From a virus, in the IMG/VR virus record IMGVR_UViG_3300032284_001121, positions 1 through 43,103 of that record: DNA of 43,103 nucleotides. One strand, written 5' to 3'. Made by a program: the position numbers and the translations under genes. The number at the start of each line of letters is the position of its first letter. Position 1 is the stretch's first letter. The notes beneath the pieces are model-generated. The model did no database searches, was not told where the DNA came from, and saw only the letters and a program-made list of their open reading frames with translations. Below, one piece after another: positions 36,463 through 43,103 of this stretch.

Positions 36463-37042
36463 AAACTTCTCCTTGAGAGGTTGTTCGTGGTCGTAGCGCC
36501 ACGAGTCGCTTGGCCAGATTATCTAGGTGATTGCTCTCGATGACAACTGTAGCCGCTTTTACCTGGCCCATGCCCATCGCTTTACTGGTCAACTCCAGCG
36601 CTCTCAGGGCCAAAGTGTCCGATACCTGATCCGCATTTTTACTCAGCTTCTCGTGAATCACATCGAGCGATCGATTGACGACTGCTTGCAGCCGCTCTTC
36701 CGTTGAAGCAATGATGATGGGATTGATGACCTCGTCACGCCTCTTCTCCAGGTGGCGCTTAAAGGCCACGCTGTTGATGATCATGTTGGTCCAGCTCGCG
36801 CTGACTCCGTACTGCTCACCGAGTTCAGCCATGGTGATGTCGGGTCTGGCAAGGACAGTGTCAGCCATCGCCCGATGGACGTTGGTGAGAACCTTGGGAC
36901 CCTTGGGAGGGACTGGCGCAATCTGCCTGAGCGGCATCTCGAGATCCAGGTCCGGTACGAGTGGTGTTGGCCGATTGGTGTTCGGCGTGGCCAAAAAGTC
37001 CGGTAGGTCCGTGGTCGACTGATTAACTTGGGTGTCTTCCAT
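36419..37042 (-). CDS. terS: Terminase small subunit-like protein
   Basis: 207 aa from ATG 37042. A Pro-rich N-terminus (TPNTNRPTPLVPDLDLEMPL) is followed by a helix-turn-helix (about 75-105: TMAELGEQYGVSASWTNMII) and a long helical region, the layout of small terminases that bind DNA and oligomerise. Its place at the head of the late block, before terL and portal, agrees. There is no ribosome site before the ATG, and the predicted transcription start falls at about the A of the ATG, so the first product of this transcript may be translated from a leaderless end. A longer start at 37117 would lie upstream of that promoter. Confidence 0.78.
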   Translation of the reverse strand: MEDTQVNQSTTDLPDFLATPNTNRPTPLVPDLDLEMPLRQIAPVPPKGPKVLTNVHRAMADTVLARPDITMAELGEQYGVSASWTNMIINSVAFKRHLEKRRDEVINPIIIASTEERLQAVVNRSLDVIHEKLSKNADQVSDTLALRALELTSKAMGMGQVKAATVVIESNHLDNLAKRLVALRPRTTSQGEVYEAHAKEINGSRGD

Positions 37043-37049
37043 GTGGCGC

Positions 37050-37078
37050 AGTATACGGTGTGTCAATGTGACTGGCAA
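37050..37078 (-). promoter_or_regulatory. Leftward late promoter
   Basis: On the leftward strand, TTGCCA (37078-37073) and TATACT (37055-37050) are separated by exactly 17 nt; each matches the sigma70 consensus at five of six positions. Transcription would begin about 6-8 nt past the -10, at roughly 37042-37044, i.e. at the terS ATG. A second TTGACA-like box within the spacer is too close to the -10 to serve with it. Confidence 0.7.
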
Positions 37079-37248
37079 GCAGTAAGGGAATTGGGGGGTA
37101 GGGGGTTCTGTGATCACGGTCTAAATTTTTCAAAAAAATGCGCGGATGCCATATGAATATTTTTGGATAGGAAAAATTTTCCCCCCGGCCCCGGGAAAAC
37201 CGGCCCCGGCGCGGCCAGGTCCCCGGTCAATCAGTCACACCGGCCACC

Positions 37249-37268
37249 GGGATCCCCTGGCCACACCG
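37249..37268. repeat. 20-bp dispersed repeat, copy 1
   Basis: GGGATCCCCTGGCCACACCG occurs here and again, identical, at 38581-38600, 1.3 kb away. The second copy includes the right part of a perfect 20-bp palindrome; the first sits inside the CCGG-rich island. Confidence 0.85.
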
Positions 37269-37327
37269 GACCCCGGCCAGGTCCCCAGGCTTTGGGATCA
37301 ATGTGGCACGGATCAACCCGGGCCCGT

Positions 37328-37345
37328 GTGGCCAGGTATCCCGGC
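37328..37345. repeat. 18-bp word shared with a coding sequence (copy 1)
   Basis: GTGGCCAGGTATCCCGGC is identical to 39771-39788, which lies within a coding sequence. The word therefore recurs independent of coding status, indicating a DNA-level element. Confidence 0.8.
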
Positions 37346-37480
37346 GCCGGTGTGACACGGTGCAGGCATGGGCCTGGGATCCGGTGTGGCCATGGATACC
37401 GGCGCCGGCATTGTATGGATACGGCATGGCCAGGCCATGGGGATCCGGCTGCAGGGAATCACACGTATCCCGGACCCCGG

Positions 37481-37512
37481 TCGACTTAACATAATATCGA
37501 CTTAACATAATA
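37481..37512. repeat. Perfect 16-bp tandem repeat, two copies
   Basis: TCGACTTAACATAATA is present twice without spacing (37481-37496 and 37497-37512). It is AT-rich and lies at the edge of the very GC-rich island, so it is a candidate DNA-unwinding element or binding site in an origin or operator region. Confidence 0.85.
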
Positions 37513-37574
37513 TGTTGCAGGCCTTGATCACGTAACCCGGTTGACTTGGCCACATTGCAGGCAATCAACCCGAA

Positions 37575-37720
37575 GTGACACAATGGCCACTACTGTGACA
37601 AATGGTTCTAAGGTGACAGAGCTCTACATAGGCGTTTTGACATCTTATTATTATTAGTGCATAATCACTTCTGTAATTTTCATTTACTTAGTCCCCAGTC
37701 ACCTAGGCCATTTGTCACAG
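37575..37720. promoter_or_regulatory. Operator cluster with 13-bp perfect inverted repeat
   Basis: CTGTGACAAATGG (37593-37605) and its exact reverse complement CCATTTGTCACAG (37708-37720) flank the rightward early promoter. Related copies are GTGACACAATGG (37575-37586), GTGACAGA (37613-37620) and, reversed, GTCACCT (37698-37704, matching AGGTGAC at 37611-37617). Three half-sites upstream and two downstream of a promoter, in opposite orientation, suggest repression by looping. The right arm extends to just before the HNH start. The protein that binds is unknown. Confidence 0.65.
37637..37665 (+). promoter_or_regulatory. Strong rightward early promoter
   Basis: TTGACA (37637-37642, six of six) and CATAAT (37660-37665, five of six) with a 17-nt spacer. 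The predicted start is near 37672, giving a leader of about 58 nt ahead of the HNH gene at 37730 and about 16 downstream genes. Nearly consensus, so likely used early by unmodified host polymerase, and controlled by the flanking repeats. Confidence 0.82.
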
Positions 37721-37729
37721 GATCACACC

Positions 37730-38293
37730 ATGAAATCACTCGATAGCGCCACTGCAGCCCGTGCAGCTCAATTTTTCCACTACGATCAAAGCGCCGGAAA
37801 ATTTTATTTAACGGCCAGGGATAACACCGGTCAACAATTCATCACAGGAACCGAAGCCGGGTTAGTCACCCCTGTGGGTGTTCGGCTTACATTTGAACGT
37901 CAATACATCGCAGCGCATCACTTGGCCTGGTTCCTGGTGCACGGTGCATGGCCGACTCATAAAGTCAGTCACTTGAATGGCGACAAAACCGATAACCGGC
38001 CGGCTAACCTGGCCAGCCCGTTAAGCCTGCAGGACCATGCTCAGGCCAGGACTACAGTCAAAGCCCGTAGCGCTGCAGTGGCCGTGAATTTTCTCGAGTC
38101 CATAGGGGTGACACAGGAACAATTGCAGGACCATGCTCTGCAGGTTATCCGCGATAACCAGGGTGAAGCCCGGTACATCGATGCACTGTTAGTGTATGGC
38201 CGTATAGATAAGGACACTCACCGGACCATGCTCGAGAATGTCAAAGCGAACAAGCGGAAACAGGTAACCCAGCGGGTTAGGGTAAACACCTAG
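37730..38293 (+). CDS. HNH endonuclease
   Basis: 187 aa from ATG 37730 (AGGA about 9 nt upstream); an in-frame TTG at 37712 is a poorer alternative. The motif AHHLAWFLVHGAWPTHKVSH then LNGDKTDNRPANL (about 62-97) is that of HNH_3-type homing-like endonucleases. The C-terminal half is helical without a clear AP2 or NUMOD domain. As the first gene of the early operon it may be a free-standing homing endonuclease, or a nuclease acting on host or competitor DNA. The end of the gene contains one copy of the palindrome TAACCCAGCGGGTTA (38265-38279), so it is also part of the control region of the next gene. Confidence 0.85.
   Translation: MKSLDSATAARAAQFFHYDQSAGKFYLTARDNTGQQFITGTEAGLVTPVGVRLTFERQYIAAHHLAWFLVHGAWPTHKVSHLNGDKTDNRPANLASPLSLQDHAQARTTVKARSAAVAVNFLESIGVTQEQLQDHALQVIRDNQGEARYIDALLVYGRIDKDTHRTMLENVKANKRKQVTQRVRVNT
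38265..38279. promoter_or_regulatory. Palindromic operator candidate, copy 1 (inside the HNH gene)
   Basis: TAACCC-AGC-GGGTTA is a 6-bp inverted repeat with a 3-nt centre, identical over all 15 bases to the copy at 38313-38327. Centres are 48 bp apart (about 4.5 helical turns). Its place inside the coding 3' end of the HNH gene is compatible with an auxiliary operator. Confidence 0.6.
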
Positions 38294-38303
38294 AAAATAA
38301 TTG

Positions 38304-38331
38304 TTGACGTGATAACCCAGCGGGTTACAAT
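38304..38331 (+). promoter_or_regulatory. Promoter with embedded palindromic operator
   Basis: TTGACG (38304-38309) and TACAAT (38326-38331), 16-nt spacer, each five of six to consensus. The palindrome TAACCCAGCGGGTTA (38313-38327) fills the spacer and touches the -10, a classic place for a repressor that blocks polymerase. It would drive the 38378 gene and those after it. Confidence 0.68.
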
Positions 38332-38377
38332 GCATGCACGGTCAACGATTCGACCGGTAACAGTAAGAGGTAACCCA

Positions 38378-38566
38378 ATGACTAAATCCGAAATTCGCGA
38401 AGTGCAAAAAATTAAACAGTATCACGCTGCAGGCCTGGGCATTGACTTTGTCGCACGTGCTCTCTCATCCCTGATTCGCTCTGCCCGTAATAACCGAAGC
38501 AAGATCGAATTGTCCCGGATCGCTGCAGATCTCGAGTGCCAGCGTCACCCTGAATTCATTTGCTAA
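38378..38566 (+). CDS. Small hypothetical protein
   Basis: 62 aa from ATG 38378, set by AAGAGG 7 nt upstream; an upstream in-frame GTG at 38309 would start inside the promoter. The sequence is helical (SEIREVQKIKQYHAAGLGID, FVARALSSLIRSARNNRSKI) and ends in a His/Cys pair (CQRHPEFIC). It is the first gene after the operator-controlled promoter. No family recognised; similar helical small proteins often act on host proteins. Confidence 0.72.
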   Translation: MTKSEIREVQKIKQYHAAGLGIDFVARALSSLIRSARNNRSKIELSRIAADLECQRHPEFIC

Positions 38567-38574
38567 GTCAACCC

Positions 38575-38594
38575 GGCCAGGGGATCCCCTGGCC
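38575..38594. repeat. Perfect 20-bp palindrome
   Basis: GGCCAGGGGATCCCCTGGCC reads the same on both strands without any mismatch. It lies in the gap between the 62-aa and 51-aa genes and has no T-tract, so it is not a typical terminator. Its right part overlaps the 20-bp dispersed repeat at 38581-38600. Could be a protein-binding site or a recombination hotspot. Confidence 0.85.
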
Positions 38595-38600
38595 ACACCG
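38581..38600. repeat. 20-bp dispersed repeat, copy 2
   Basis: Identical to 37249-37268 (GGGATCCCCTGGCCACACCG). Here it overlaps a perfect 20-bp palindrome. Confidence 0.85.
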
Positions 38601-38628
38601 TAACCCCGTAAAAGTAAGAGGTAAACCA

Positions 38629-38784
38629 ATGAAACACAATCAACACAAATTAACCTACATCGACCTCCACCCTGCACCGGTCGACCGGGATCCTCCGGCC
38701 TGGGCAATCTGGCTCGGTGCAGCGCTTACCCTGGCCGGGGTTTACCTGGTGATCATCCTCTCGAGCCTGTGGGGTGCAGCATGA
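38629..38784 (+). CDS. Small single-pass membrane protein
   Basis: 51 aa from ATG 38629, AAGAGG (38616-38621) 7 nt upstream. A polar, His/Asp-rich N-terminus (KHNQHKLTYIDLHPAPVDRD) leads into one hydrophobic helix (about 25-46: AIWLGAALTLAGVYLVIIL). It overlaps the next start by ATGA. Likely in the inner membrane with a short C-terminus; could modulate host envelope functions or superinfection, though that is speculation. Confidence 0.72.
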   Translation: MKHNQHKLTYIDLHPAPVDRDPPAWAIWLGAALTLAGVYLVIILSSLWGAA

Positions 38785-39545
38785 GCAAAACCAAAATCCT
38801 GGGATACATCGCGTATGAGGGTCCATCGATGATCGATGGATCCCCGATTGTGGTTATCGTCAACAAAATCGACGCGGCCAGCAAAAACGACAAAACCGGC
38901 GCCCTGGTGCAGTCGTTCATCATCCGGTCCGATATCGCCCCCATGGCTGCACTACAAACCGGCGCGGATGTATCGGTGTGCGGCCAGTGCATCCACCGGC
39001 CGATCCTGGCCAAGGATACCGGGAAACCTCCGTGCTATGTGCAGGTCGGAAAATCGGTGCAGTCGGTTTATTACGCGTACAAGCGCGGCAGATACGTTAA
39101 GGCCACACCGGCCACAATCGCGCGGGTTATCGCGGGTAAGCGCTTAAGAATCGGCACCTATGGGGATCCCTGGGCTGCACCGGTGGCCACCTGGCAGGAC
39201 CTGGTGCAGTTCGTCGCTGGGCATGCCGGGTATTCGCACCAGTGGCAGGATACCCGATTCGATCACCAGGCCTGGGCCCCGTTAGTTATGGCCAGCGCGG
39301 ATGATATCGACGAAGCTGCCCAGGCTAACCTATACGGCATGCGAGTATTCAGGGTATCGGTCGGGGTCGATCGTCAACCTGGGGAGGTTACCTGCCCGGC
39401 CAGCGCGGAGGGAGGTCGGAAAACCACATGCGCCGATTGCTTATTGTGTGGTGGCACGTCAAAAGTGGCCAGGGATATCGTGATCGCGGACCATGCGGCC
39501 GGCCATGCGCGCCGGGTCATTTCAATTCAACCGGTAAGGGGATAA
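38781..39545 (+). CDS. Conserved phage protein (DUF7227-like) with Cys clusters
   Basis: 254 aa from ATG 38781. KILGYIAYEGPSMIDGSPIV, VCGQCIHRPILA, CYVQVGKSVQSVYYAYKRGR and CPASAEGGRKTTCADCLLCG are hallmarks of a widespread phage protein I recognise as DUF7227-like. Metal-binding is suggested by CxxC (CGQC), the CP...TCADCLLC cluster and a conserved His. It has often been noted near replication genes but I know of no proven function. It overlaps the upstream stop by ATGA. Its DNA is full of CCGG/GGCC words like the noncoding island. Confidence 0.8.
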   Translation: MSKTKILGYIAYEGPSMIDGSPIVVIVNKIDAASKNDKTGALVQSFIIRSDIAPMAALQTGADVSVCGQCIHRPILAKDTGKPPCYVQVGKSVQSVYYAYKRGRYVKATPATIARVIAGKRLRIGTYGDPWAAPVATWQDLVQFVAGHAGYSHQWQDTRFDHQAWAPLVMASADDIDEAAQANLYGMRVFRVSVGVDRQPGEVTCPASAEGGRKTTCADCLLCGGTSKVARDIVIADHAAGHARRVISIQPVRG

Positions 39546-39548
39546 ACC

Positions 39549-39746
39549 ATGCGACAAACCAAAGCCCAGCGCCAGGCCCAGTGGCTCACTGAATTCACGG
39601 ATCAAGTAGTGAGCCGGGTACCGGCTCACAGTGGCCGGATCGAATGGCCTGCAGCCCTGCACTACTATTTCACCGGGTTGACCCCGGCGGAGGGTGCAGC
39701 GCGATACCTGGCCTATAAACCCAATGGTCCGGAGGTCACACAATGA
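39549..39746 (+). CDS. Small hypothetical protein
   Basis: 65 aa with AAGGGG about 6 nt before ATG 39549. Basic start (RQTKAQRQAQWLTEFTDQVV), then an aromatic stretch (RIEWPAALHYYFTGLTPAEG) and AARYLAYKP. Looks like a compact helical protein. Overlaps the next gene by ATGA. No family recognised. Confidence 0.68.
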   Translation: MRQTKAQRQAQWLTEFTDQVVSRVPAHSGRIEWPAALHYYFTGLTPAEGAARYLAYKPNGPEVTQ

Positions 39747-39970
39747 CAATCAAAACCATGGTGGCCAGGTATCCCGGCCGGTGCAGTCAATCAGGTGCAC
39801 GGATCAACCCCGGCGACACGATACTTTATGACACGGCCACGAAGCGGGCCAGGCTGCAGCCCGATTCGGATCGAATCACGTTTATCGGCGAGCACGGGCC
39901 CAGCACGTTCTATCGTAACCGGTCCGGCCGGTGCATCGATGCCCCATGCTGTGGCTGTTGCACCATTTGA
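39743..39970 (+). CDS. Small phage protein with Cys-rich tail
   Basis: 75 aa. The first half, MVARYPGRCSQSGARINPGD then TILYD, is a beta-hairpin motif (GxC...sGxxIxpGDxIxYD) recurrent in phage small proteins and reminiscent of a metal-binding knuckle. It ends CIDAPCCGCC, four or more cysteines that may bind metal. The 18-bp word shared with the noncoding island (39771-39788) encodes residues about 10-15 of this protein. Confidence 0.68.
   Translation: MTIKTMVARYPGRCSQSGARINPGDTILYDTATKRARLQPDSDRITFIGEHGPSTFYRNRSGRCIDAPCCGCCTI
39771..39788. repeat. 18-bp word shared with noncoding island (copy 2)
   Basis: GTGGCCAGGTATCCCGGC, identical to 37328-37345 in the noncoding island but here inside a coding sequence. 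A second shared word, GCACGGATCAACCC, lies just after it (about 39797) and in the island (about 37308). Confidence 0.8.
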
Positions 39971-40129
39971 GCCCCACGCGCGCCCACGCGCGCATTGTGT
40001 AACCCATGGGCGCCCGTACGCGCCCGACGCGTGCCCACGCGCGAGAGGATCCCCATGCACCCAGTTTTCCAGCAGGCCCTACGGCCATTTTCACCACCAC
40101 CACGCGCCCACGCGCATAAGGACTTAACC
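39971..40129 (+). other. ACGCGC-rich spacer
   Basis: 159-bp gap dominated by CCCACGCGC-type words; six ACGCGC within it by eye. An in-frame ATG at 40055 with AGAGG six nt upstream could extend the next gene upstream by 25 residues (HPVFQQALRPFSPPPRAHAH), but the extension is itself made of the repeated word. Otherwise I see no gene here. Confidence 0.6.
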
Positions 40130-40309
40130 ATGCCACTGACAACAGACGAACAAGAGCGCCACGCCTACGCGCGAGGCGATACGCGAGAGGCCGAGCTACT
40201 GGCCAGGATCGACGCCCTGCAGCGCGCCCTAGGCCAGGCCATCGCGGACCTGGACGAGGCGAACCGATCGATCGACGAACTCGAAGAGGTGCTCAATGCA
40301 ACACACTGA
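40130..40309 (+). CDS. Small coiled-coil protein
   Basis: 59 aa from ATG 40130 (AAGGA 7 nt upstream; ATG 40055 is a credible longer alternative giving 84 aa). A single long amphipathic helix: EAELLARIDALQRALGQAIA DLDEANRSIDELEEVL with heptad spacing, so probably a coiled-coil dimer. It overlaps the next gene by 14 nt. Function unknown. Confidence 0.66.
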   Translation: MPLTTDEQERHAYARGDTREAELLARIDALQRALGQAIADLDEANRSIDELEEVLNATH

Positions 40310-40502
40310 ATCCGAGTACATCAACGCCGGCGCCGCCTATGAGCGCGCCGCCACGCCTGACGCCGCACGCGCCCACGCGCAGGGCATCCGCACTATGCTG
40401 GAGGCCGAGCGGCCGGAGGATCAGACCTACGCGCGTCAGATGATCGAGCACGGCCGGGCCGAGGTCCGAGGGGCGCCCCTACGCGCGAGGGCTAAACAAT
40501 GA
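40296..40502 (+). CDS. Small helical hypothetical protein
   Basis: 68 aa, AGAGG about 7 nt before ATG 40296. Helical and Ala/Arg/Glu-rich (YINAGAAYERAATPDAARAH, then ERPEDQTYARQMIEHGRAEV). Several YAR, HAR and RAR tripeptides are direct translations of the ACGCGC word, so the repeat contributes to the protein sequence. It overlaps the next gene by ATGA. No known family. Confidence 0.62.
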   Translation: MQHTESEYINAGAAYERAATPDAARAHAQGIRTMLEAERPEDQTYARQMIEHGRAEVRGAPLRARAKQ

Positions 40503-40651
40503 GCCCGTACGCGCCTACGCGCCCCATGCTGCCCCGTATGCCTGCCCGGTTCGCCCGGTGGCTCACGCCTGGGGAGAATCCCTTCACGGCCGACGCTGAG
40601 CACCTGCACACGTTCGCCCAGCTTGTTCGACTCGCTGAGGTTGACCTATGA
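40499..40651 (+). CDS. Small hypothetical protein
   Basis: 50 aa from ATG 40499, with GAGGG about 7 nt upstream and ATGA overlaps at both ends. A basic Pro-rich start (SPYAPTRPMLPRMPARFARW) is followed by a helix with LTPGENPFTADAEHLHTFAQ. The overlaps and ribosome site argue for a real gene even though it is short. Confidence 0.6.
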   Translation: MSPYAPTRPMLPRMPARFARWLTPGENPFTADAEHLHTFAQLVRLAEVDL

Positions 40652-40983
40652 GCAAGCTGCCAGACTGGATGACCCCCACGCCTACGCGCGCCCCACGCGC
40701 GAGACCCCGGCCCACGCGGGTAACACCTGCGCCCACGCCTACGCGCGAGCTAGACCTGCCCAACATCTTTCAACTGCGTGTGATGACGATACGCAAGCGA
40801 CTGGACCTCAGCGCCGCCGCCATGGCCAGATACCTGGGCGTGCCGGTGTACACCTACAGGAAGTGGGAAGACGGTACGCGCGACCCCAGCGCGTCGGTGG
40901 TACGCCTGCTGGAGGTGCTGCGCCTGATCGACGACCACGCGCCCAAGCTACACAATCAACTGATTCAAGAGGCTAAAAAATGA
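40648..40983 (+). CDS. XRE-family (Cro/CI-type) HTH regulator
   Basis: 111 aa. The N-terminal 35 residues are a Pro/Thr/Arg-rich run (TPTPTRAPRARPRPTRVTPA) encoded by successive ACGCGC-type words and are probably disordered. The rest is a helix-turn-helix (about 45-95): LRVMTIRKRLDLSAAAMARY, LGVPVYTYRKWEDGTRDPSA, VVRLLEVLRLI, matching the XRE pattern with the recognition helix at PVYTYRKWEDG. It is the best candidate in the window for a protein binding TAACCCAGCGGGTTA or the GTGACAAATGG sites. Starts with an ATGA overlap. Confidence 0.8.
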   Translation: MSKLPDWMTPTPTRAPRARPRPTRVTPAPTPTRELDLPNIFQLRVMTIRKRLDLSAAAMARYLGVPVYTYRKWEDGTRDPSASVVRLLEVLRLIDDHAPKLHNQLIQEAKK

Positions 40984-41063
40984 ACGAGATACTTTTGCAA
41001 ATATTCGGCGGACTCATCGGGATCCTGCTCGGTGTGATTATTGTTCTTTGGAGAGACCGATGA
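40980..41063 (+). CDS. 27-aa membrane microprotein
   Basis: MNEILLQIFGGLIGILLGVI and IVLWRDR: one hydrophobic helix with a basic C-terminus. It starts within the regulator stop (ATGA), has AGAGG about 7 nt upstream and ends in ATGA with the next gene. The design suits a single-span inner membrane peptide. Confidence 0.6.
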   Translation: MNEILLQIFGGLIGILLGVIIVLWRDR

Positions 41064-41212
41064 TCGACTTTGACGATGACCCCGAGGCCGAGGACCTACG
41101 CGCGCAAGATCGCTTTGAGGCCAGACGCGCGCTCGCTTTGAGATATAACCCCGACTGCCGGGACCCCGACCACCCTGGATGTGAACACTGTGAAGGAGAA
41201 GATGATGAATGA
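41060..41212 (+). CDS. Small acidic protein with CxxC
   Basis: 50 aa, very acidic (MIDFDDDPEAEDLRAQDRFE) with a C-terminal NPDCRDPDHPGCEHCEGEDD segment: three cysteines and two histidines that may hold one zinc. ATGA overlap upstream; the tail overlaps the next gene by 8 nt. Acidic small proteins of phages often mimic DNA or bind host regulators, but this is only a possibility. Confidence 0.6.
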   Translation: MIDFDDDPEAEDLRAQDRFEARRALALRYNPDCRDPDHPGCEHCEGEDDE

Positions 41213-41405
41213 AAATGAAAGAATGATGGACCTTGCCTTGGCTGAGGCTGAAGCAGAGAATCGCCTGCTACGCGCGCGCAACGAGCGCCTGGAGAAGGTG
41301 GCCGACGCCGCACGCGCCATGATTAGCGCGCTCACGAGCATAGGCGACTATGAGCAGTGGGACAAGGCGCTCACGCGCCTGGAGAAGACACTGGAGGGCG
41401 CGTAA
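41205..41405 (+). CDS. Small coiled-coil protein
   Basis: 66 aa from ATG 41205, 6 nt after AAGGAG (41193-41198); ATG 41202 is too close to that site. A long helix (MNENERMMDLALAEAEAENR LLRARNERLEKVADAARAM) with heptads, then DYEQWDKALTRLEKTLEGA. Resembles small phage proteins of unknown role with a conserved AL..LE...GA end. Its stop overlaps the next start (TAATG). Confidence 0.68.
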   Translation: MNENERMMDLALAEAEAENRLLRARNERLEKVADAARAMISALTSIGDYEQWDKALTRLEKTLEGA

Positions 41406-42009: not shown

Positions 42010-43103
42010 CATTCTGCCCCGGGTACGCGCTTACGCGCGTGAGGGGCGGCCTTGTAAATCTCGTCCAGTTGCCGCTGCTTGGCCTCCAGCACTGCCTTGC
42101 GATGACCCTTGAACAACTCCATCAACTGAGGATTGATCCCCCACTGCGCGATGTGCTGGTGCTCTTTCGTCCCGTCGTCCATACGCGCGACCCAGGTGCT
42201 TTGCTCCAGCAGCGTCATGGCATTGATGACCATCTGATCGGCCTGCCACGGGCTCACGTGCTCCACCTGACGCCTGGCTGAGCGCTTGATCTCGGACATG
42301 GTCAGCGTGGCCTTGTCGGCGTGCTGGATCACGTAGTCCGCGACCCACGCGTCAAACGAGTTAACGCCGCCCACCTCGCCCAGCGAATACCTGAACGCGG
42401 GGATCACGTACTCTTTGACAATACGGATCACGCGCTCCACAACATCGGGCTGCACCAGCAGATCAAACGGCCGCTCCATGAGGTGCATCACCAGGATCAG
42501 GCGCCCGGTCGTGCCCTCGAGCTTACCAAACGCGGTCATGAACGCCTCGGGGCTGCTCAGGGTGCGCTCATCTCGCTTGGCTGCCTCGTACCAGCGTTGG
42601 AACTCGCGAAACACAGCATGAGCCTCGGTCGAGAGTTTGTAGGTCTGCGCTGGCAGTGCGTACACCAGGCGCAGCATCTGCTCCCACTGTGCCTTGTTGG
42701 TCATGAACTCGGGGATCGGCTCACCCAGGCGCGTTTTGTCGCCGCGCAGGATCGCAGGGATGAACCGCTGGAGCAGGCCATCGGCCGTGAGCGAGCTTAG
42801 GTTGTCTTTGTACACCCGGGGCTGGATGTTGCCGTAGATGCTGATGGCCAGGTTCTCGCAGTGGATCGAGCCACTGCCCACCCGGTCCATGTCATAGGTC
42901 TCTGACTCGTAGGACACCACCCAGGTTGATCGGTCCTCGCCGCTGGTCTTGTCGGTGAGCTTCTTGACCCAGGAGTTCATCTCATCGAGGTAACACAGCA
43001 GGCCCCGTGGCCGCTCGGAAGCATGGCGCACGAGCTTCTGTGATGTGATGTCCGAGACCGTGATCTTCAGGGGCGCAGGCTTCTCGGGCAGATCGTGCAC
43101 CAC
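42009..43103 (-). CDS. Prim-pol/DUF3987 primase-helicase, C-terminal part; 5' end at 1383..1
   Basis: The rest of the primase-helicase that enters from the left end of the window across the join (364 aa here, residues 455-818 of about 818). It contains the DUF3987 Walker B-like motif LLCYLDEMNSW (D494, E495 of the whole protein), followed by SIHCENLAISIYGNIQPRV, RFIPAILRGDKT (a possible arginine region) and a C-terminal winged-helix-like region (about 725-775: NSFDAWVADYVIQHADKATL). The last residues are basic (HARKRVPGAE). The apparent GTG start at the window edge is an artefact of the cut. Confidence 0.88.
   Translation of the reverse strand: MVHDLPEKPAPLKITVSDITSQKLVRHASERPRGLLCYLDEMNSWVKKLTDKTSGEDRSTWVVSYESETYDMDRVGSGSIHCENLAISIYGNIQPRVYKDNLSSLTADGLLQRFIPAILRGDKTRLGEPIPEFMTNKAQWEQMLRLVYALPAQTYKLSTEAHAVFREFQRWYEAAKRDERTLSSPEAFMTAFGKLEGTTGRLILVMHLMERPFDLLVQPDVVERVIRIVKEYVIPAFRYSLGEVGGVNSFDAWVADYVIQHADKATLTMSEIKRSARRQVEHVSPWQADQMVINAMTLLEQSTWVARMDDGTKEHQHIAQWGINPQLMELFKGHRKAVLEAKQRQLDEIYKAAPHARKRVPGAE
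43083..43103. repeat. 21-bp terminal redundancy (copy 2)
   Basis: Identical to bases 1-21; the sequence is circular and one copy should be removed. Confidence 0.9.

Follow-up and report, generated by a model that had tools for sequence, protein, structure and literature searches.

In the phage genome investigated here (IMG/VR record IMGVR_UViG_3300032284_001121, of which the whole stretch of 43,103 nucleotides is called the window below), a series of small early genes is crossed by an array of 23 copies of ACGCGC on the + strand (39971-41405; CCYACGCGC[G/C], from counts and logo). The excess of this word acts on the DNA and not on the protein. Since the same shoulder of the early region is rich in CG-runs in relatives, and the runs that the window has there are all preceded by A, the array is a lineage-specific spelling, almost wholly (Y)ACGCG, of a family-wide CG-run density.

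Results

Number, context and spacing of the copies

An earlier note had counted by hand about 23 copies on the + strand between 39971 and 41360. A scripted count gave 22, against two of the complement GCGCGT; a 23rd + strand copy lies at 41373, and 39971-41405 as a whole holds 23 against 3. Local excess and strand bias were both borne out by the count of the two words over the whole window that had been recommended: the remaining 41.7 kb contain 13 copies on the + and 15 on the - strand, with no enrichment anywhere outside the array, and from this rest only 0.43 and 0.50 copies are expected in the region, which places the array about 50 times above background. Markov models of the region itself predict 2.6 ± 1.5 copies at order 1 (maximum 7 in 500) and 6.3 ± 2.4 at order 2 (maximum 14).

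The two main contexts named beforehand, CCCACGCGC (six copies) and CTACGCGC (eight), indeed account for most of the array, and the motif built from the copies has the full consensus CCYACGCGCS, with C at -3 in 19/23, C at -2 in 16/23 and a pyrimidine at -1 in 22/23; about half of the copies read TACGCGC. They start at 39976, 39986, 40018, 40037, 40102, 40110, 40167, 40367, 40375, 40429, 40481, 40509, 40517, 40684, 40695, 40741, 40876, 40937, 41098, 41125, 41270, 41312 and 41373. The left edge is sharp, at most six bases past the stop of gene A, and the right end lies at gene H. Spacing is irregular (8 to 200 bp), with close pairs 8, 8, 8, 10 and 11 bp apart, in mostly coding DNA of 57-71% GC. 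The block CCACGCCTACGCGCG recurs at three places and the 10-mer YACGCGCGAG at five, of which one lies outside called genes; all three frames are represented. TRF reported for the array only repeats of about two copies with units of 8-10 bp, and the RNA structure of 39971-40770 is unremarkable (z -1.1). An assembly artefact is ruled out, because a 97% identical sister contig from another sample holds all 11 shared copies. The window is circular as assembled, with a 21-bp direct terminal repeat (1-21 = 43083-43103), and the sister contig runs across its end-to-start junction. When IMG/VR was scanned for triple ACGCGC, the strongest cases checked among the matches listed were mostly tandem repeats (7-, 15-, 21-, 24- and 33-mers); another of the matches listed, L286, has dispersed copies but is unrelated.

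Genes crossed by the array

All of genes A to H are very small early genes that read rightward and for the most part overlap; beyond them lies a leftward primase gene. Gene A (39743-39970, +; 75 aa), widespread in relatives and with a Cys-rich C-terminus, is free of the motif. The gap between genes A and B (39971-40129, +) holds six copies, including a 10-bp and an 8-bp pair, and may in part be an in-frame N-terminal extension of gene B, from an ATG at 40056. In gene B itself (40130-40309, +; 59 aa) HAYAR (CACGCCTACGCGCGA) stands in place of AAYAA or AAYMA of the orthologs, without an indel. Gene C (40296-40502, +; 68 aa) ends in a private, repeat-made tail, GAPLRARAKQ, and gene D (40499-40651, +; 50 aa), for which no ortholog was found save in the sister, starts with MSPYAPTRP, encoded by two copies 8 bp apart. 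Gene E (40648-40983, +; 111 aa) is an XRE/HTH_3 regulator (Pfam HTH_3, 1.2e-6) in which three copies make up an N-terminal extension (residues 9-33, PTPTRAPRARPRPTRVTPAPTPTR), whereas its orthologs begin near the HTH without such an extension. Genes G and H (41060-41405, +) contain five copies together, three of them in H.

Thus 17 of the 23 copies lie inside genes, in all three reading frames (encoding YAR, TRE, LRA, ARA, HAP etc.), and six outside called genes. This agrees with the earlier description of a repeat that crosses a gap, the one after 39970, as well as several genes and adds peptides to them, including the start of the XRE regulator, where it forms most of the N-terminal extension.

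Excess with the encoded proteins held fixed

Synonymous codons were shuffled among genes B to H in 3000 rounds, with proteins and codon counts fixed. Against 17 observed coding copies, the permuted sequences had 4.4 ± 1.8, with a maximum of 11; the reverse word occurs three times against 1.0. Because of this difference the excess sits in the DNA, a peptide-level cause of the array is rejected, and the view that more than GC-richness is involved, in one orientation, was upheld. As to strand bias taken as an oriented signal, the bias is real (22:2), but much of it is a coding effect, since the permutation predicts about 4:1 (4.4:1.0) from coding alone.

Relatives and sister contig

Gene B was found in 22 relatives and gene H in 20, while a conserved DUF gene to the left of gene A and gene A itself each occur in at least 80 contigs. 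The homologous 1.4 kb of 42 GC-rich relatives contains 2.3 ± 1.5 forward copies, at most six. Orthologous cores of the window carry one copy in B, three in C, two in E and three in H (sum 9), those of relatives on average 1.1, 1.0, 0.6 and 1.0 (sum about 3.7), with one reverse copy overall. The rest of the array, about 14 copies in about 0.7 kb, stands in DNA without orthologs; this surplus DNA is private to the lineage and consists of the A-B gap, the C tail, the D start and the new N-terminal extension of E. In the relatives' cores 49:1 copies were observed against 26.6:3.7 from synonymous permutation, the relatives not being independent of one another. Gene order is B-C-E-H-primase in L313 and C-E-H-primase in L314, both without the array, and none like it is present in phage DSL-LC05.

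Sister contig L001, which is 97% identical, has the same copies as the window and carries between E and F an additional gene of 76 aa (L001 410-640) with two more ACGCGC on the same strand; no relative of this gene was found elsewhere in IMG/VR. Copy number at shared sites is unchanged, and the 10-bp sites show 1/100 mismatches against 27/737 outside, a hint of constraint which is not significant (p=0.24). Of the three copies in gene H, one or two are kept by the orthologs in L312-L314. Among IMG/VR matches, repeated occurrences of the extended 15-mer are confined to the window and the sister.

In the 700 bp after gene A, CG-runs are enriched in relatives in every flanking context (CGCGC 7.8x, GCGCGC 13x, CGCGCG 11x, CCGCGC 7.3x, ACGCGC 6.5x), with a strand split of 69:17 for ACGCGC:GCGCGT. 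This shoulder holds 26 CG-runs of five or more in the window, against a mean of 13.7 and a maximum of 25 in relatives. The preceding base differs: A precedes 26/26 of these runs, compared with 259/915 in relatives and 26/90 elsewhere in the window; the shoulder of the window lacks CCGCG and has TCGCG once. Before ACGCGC itself mostly G is found in relatives (34/75), C or T in the window array.

A palindrome-rich early region

The array is adjoined on its left by an early patch (37000-40100, without strand) with 34-38 six-base palindromes per kb, where 15-18 are expected. Over 37.0-41.0 kb such palindromes reach about twice expectation, and they are depleted over most of the rest of the window (CTGCAG 0 against 14.5 expected, AGGCCT 0 against 8.8, GCATGC 1 against 7.7). 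The excess concerns perfect palindromes; inverted repeats with 3-8 base loops are mostly not in excess. Between 37.0 and 39.97 kb the words are CCGG, GGCC, TGCA, TCGA and GATC, and to the right of 39.97 kb mainly CGCG and GCGC, i.e., the array itself.

Relative to expectation, palindromes are more frequent inside than outside in 37/37 GC-rich relatives (median 2.06 vs 0.58), with GCGCGC 13x, CGCGCG 9.6x, CGGCCG 8x and TGGCCA 7x inside, and likewise in 35/35 AT-rich relatives (0.70 vs 0.37), where this amounts to relief of depletion. In the conserved DUF gene they exceed synonymous permutations in 66/71 phages, with pooled z of 35, 21 and 19 for 4-, 6- and 8-mers in GC-rich phages. Among isolated phages with the DUF gene, relief at the early end is weaker, if present at all: it is seen in Caulobacter S2B and less clearly in Adzzy, and DSL-LC05 has some in its early block. 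The idea of a decoy for exactly the avoided sites is unsupported, because outside avoidance and inside enrichment are not negatively related; the 64 hexamers correlate positively, with a rho of 0.40 for the window and 0.63 for relatives. A literature search found no comparable early palindrome patch, which is no proof of novelty, and the patch may be a more important observation than the array.

The DUF gene (phrog_2554) lies at 38784-39545. Homologs of it stand close to the early end of the genome in Caulobacter phage S2B and in mycobacteriophages, and are also present in a Rhodoferax MAG contig. For its protein, PDB sequence and fold searches gave no match.

Discussion

Origin of the array

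With about an even chance of being correct, the array would be a lineage-private dispersed short repeat that direct copying and substitution have propagated within a permissive or promoting patch. A seed close to GCCYACGCGCGAG may have arisen in the early operon of the window phage and its sister and been multiplied in one orientation by short direct duplications; within genes, further copies would stem from substitutions that brought the sequence closer to the word. Spread would have taken place mainly in weakly constrained DNA, namely the A-B gap, the C tail, the D start and the new disordered N-terminus of E. The site is the right shoulder of an early region in which CG-runs and other short palindromes abound throughout the phage family. 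This reading is favoured because of the excess over synonymous permutations, the 10-mer at five places, the tandem pairs, the repeat families, the surplus in ortholog-free DNA, the private 15-mer and the CG-run shoulder of the relatives; lineage-private copies of one orientation in weakly constrained DNA are also what characterizes short direct repeats dispersed by non-functional spread. Copying alone does not account for the copies inside conserved cores, which arose by substitution without indels, as in gene B, and the orientation we infer to be a by-product of direct copying and coding rather than the mark of a directional reader. Against a spread repeat also stand the constancy of copy number between window and sister, the non-significant hint of constraint at the 10-bp sites, the two copies in the sister's extra gene, and the strict 5' context (Y)A, which looks like recognition specificity. 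It is possible, if doubtful, that the early region is positively selected at the DNA level for dense CG-run and palindromic words, with the rest of the genome purged of palindromes, because a host or phage factor reads them early in infection, and that the right half was recoded here to a strict oriented YACGCGC site.

The chief rival of the spread repeat, somewhat unlikely in our judgement, is an oriented array of candidate binding sites (operator- or stoperator-like), with the XRE protein E as the simplest choice for the regulator that would bind them and damp transcription of the early operon in one direction. An asymmetric word in fixed context along the direction of transcription, a surplus at the DNA level that extends over three frames and conserved cores, and the position of the HTH gene E in the middle of the array are consistent with it, and stoperators are a precedent for asymmetric, direction-dependent phage sites (PMC9283540). 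However, the orthologs of E in L099 and L100 have nearly the same recognition helix without an array, DSL-LC05 has a 'repressor protein C' and no such array, and the sites are packed in 1.4 kb, largely intragenic, with none in the intergenic DNA near 37.1-37.7 kb that heads the operon. That Ala/Arg/Thr-rich small proteins using CGC, GCG and ACG codons produced the word as a by-product is improbable: coding alone predicts a strand bias of 4:1 to 7:1, and the relatives' cores carry the word almost exclusively on the coding strand, but the number is four times the expectation with proteins and codon usage fixed, six copies lie outside called genes and the nearby DUF gene is biased the opposite way (26:55). 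As a full explanation it is refuted by the synonymous permutation.

Recent acquisition of a foreign segment that has a word usage of its own would agree with genes D, F and G, for which no relatives beyond the sister were found among the fetched loci, but is quite improbable, as B, C, E, H and the primase gene are syntenic in L313 and conserved genes have gained the word as well. The Chi-type or loading site of the earlier note, or a packaging signal read in one direction, would account for repeats on the same strand; CACGCGC is the complement of the lactococcal Chi, GCGCGTG. Nevertheless, this proposal found no support and must be called most improbable: the array is confined to 1.4 kb, relatives have none comparable, the extended repeat is private to phage and sister, half of the copies read TACGCGC, the Rhodoferax MAG contig, and not a lactic acid bacterium, is the nearest cellular relative, and GC skew gives no clear origin at the array.

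Comparison with known systems

In cluster A mycobacteriophages, stoperators are 13-mers to which a two-domain repressor binds and which are scattered over the genome, in promoters and in the short gaps between genes (PMC9283540). The array resembles them in its more than 20 short asymmetric sites oriented with transcription (23 vs 3 along the rightward genes) in a phage that encodes an HTH regulator, but it consists of 9-10-mers packed in a single 1.4-kb stretch, mostly intragenic. The start-associated sequences of cluster K mycobacteriophages (11-19 copies, 3-7 bp before start codons; PMC3203893) are likewise short, asymmetric, nearly of one orientation and situated among small non-structural genes; about three ACGCGC copies, in contrast, stand just before a start and most lie inside ORFs. 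The nearest compositional parallels are the clusters of GC-rich repetitive k-mers in UPIE and other cluster L1 phages, which mark off one part of the genome by local groups of repeated words, and the genome-wide over-representation of one word, GATC/GGATCC, in subcluster B3 mycobacteriophages, a palindromic excess in phages that normally avoid such words (PMC4841201). The parts of that account considered here describe for L1 neither a family-wide early region rich in CG-runs and palindromes nor tests with fixed proteins, and the present excess, unlike that of B3, is limited to an early patch and comprises many palindromes. Genome-wide strand bias common to relatives, as in Chi, recombination or loading sites, regular direct repeats in AT-rich non-coding DNA, as in iteron origins, and the head-to-tail order of minisatellites are all absent from the array. 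We class it as a variant of dispersed short phage repeats.

A DNA word thus overrides synonymous choice in early genes of a phage and even builds a protein extension. The array also leads to a family-wide early patch, in which restriction-type palindromes avoided elsewhere in the same genomes are in excess; if the patch is selected, it raises a testable question left open by avoidance studies, namely why a phage keeps sites that are otherwise removed.

Other repeated words of the early region

Further dispersed words of the patch are GGCCAGG (10 + / 6 -) and GGTGCA (12 + / 3 -) at 37200-39950, the run of the latter ending near the start of the ACGCGC array. In L004 (1931-2030), L010 (1651-1780) and L063 (1617-1740), CGGTCGG and AGCCAGC clusters close to the DUF gene or upstream of it turned out to be plain microsatellites. 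The near-palindrome AACCCAGCGGGTT occurs twice between early genes (38266-38278 and 38314-38326), and six copies of the related CCCAGCGGG are present in relative L095 (1761-2331); together they likely represent a conserved operator. In L166 (5388-5620) and many AT-rich relatives a TTTTGCGAAGTGAGYRCWYAC-like word is found in three to four copies at a spacing of 28-29 bp, with one 168 bp away, forming an operator- or iteron-like array.
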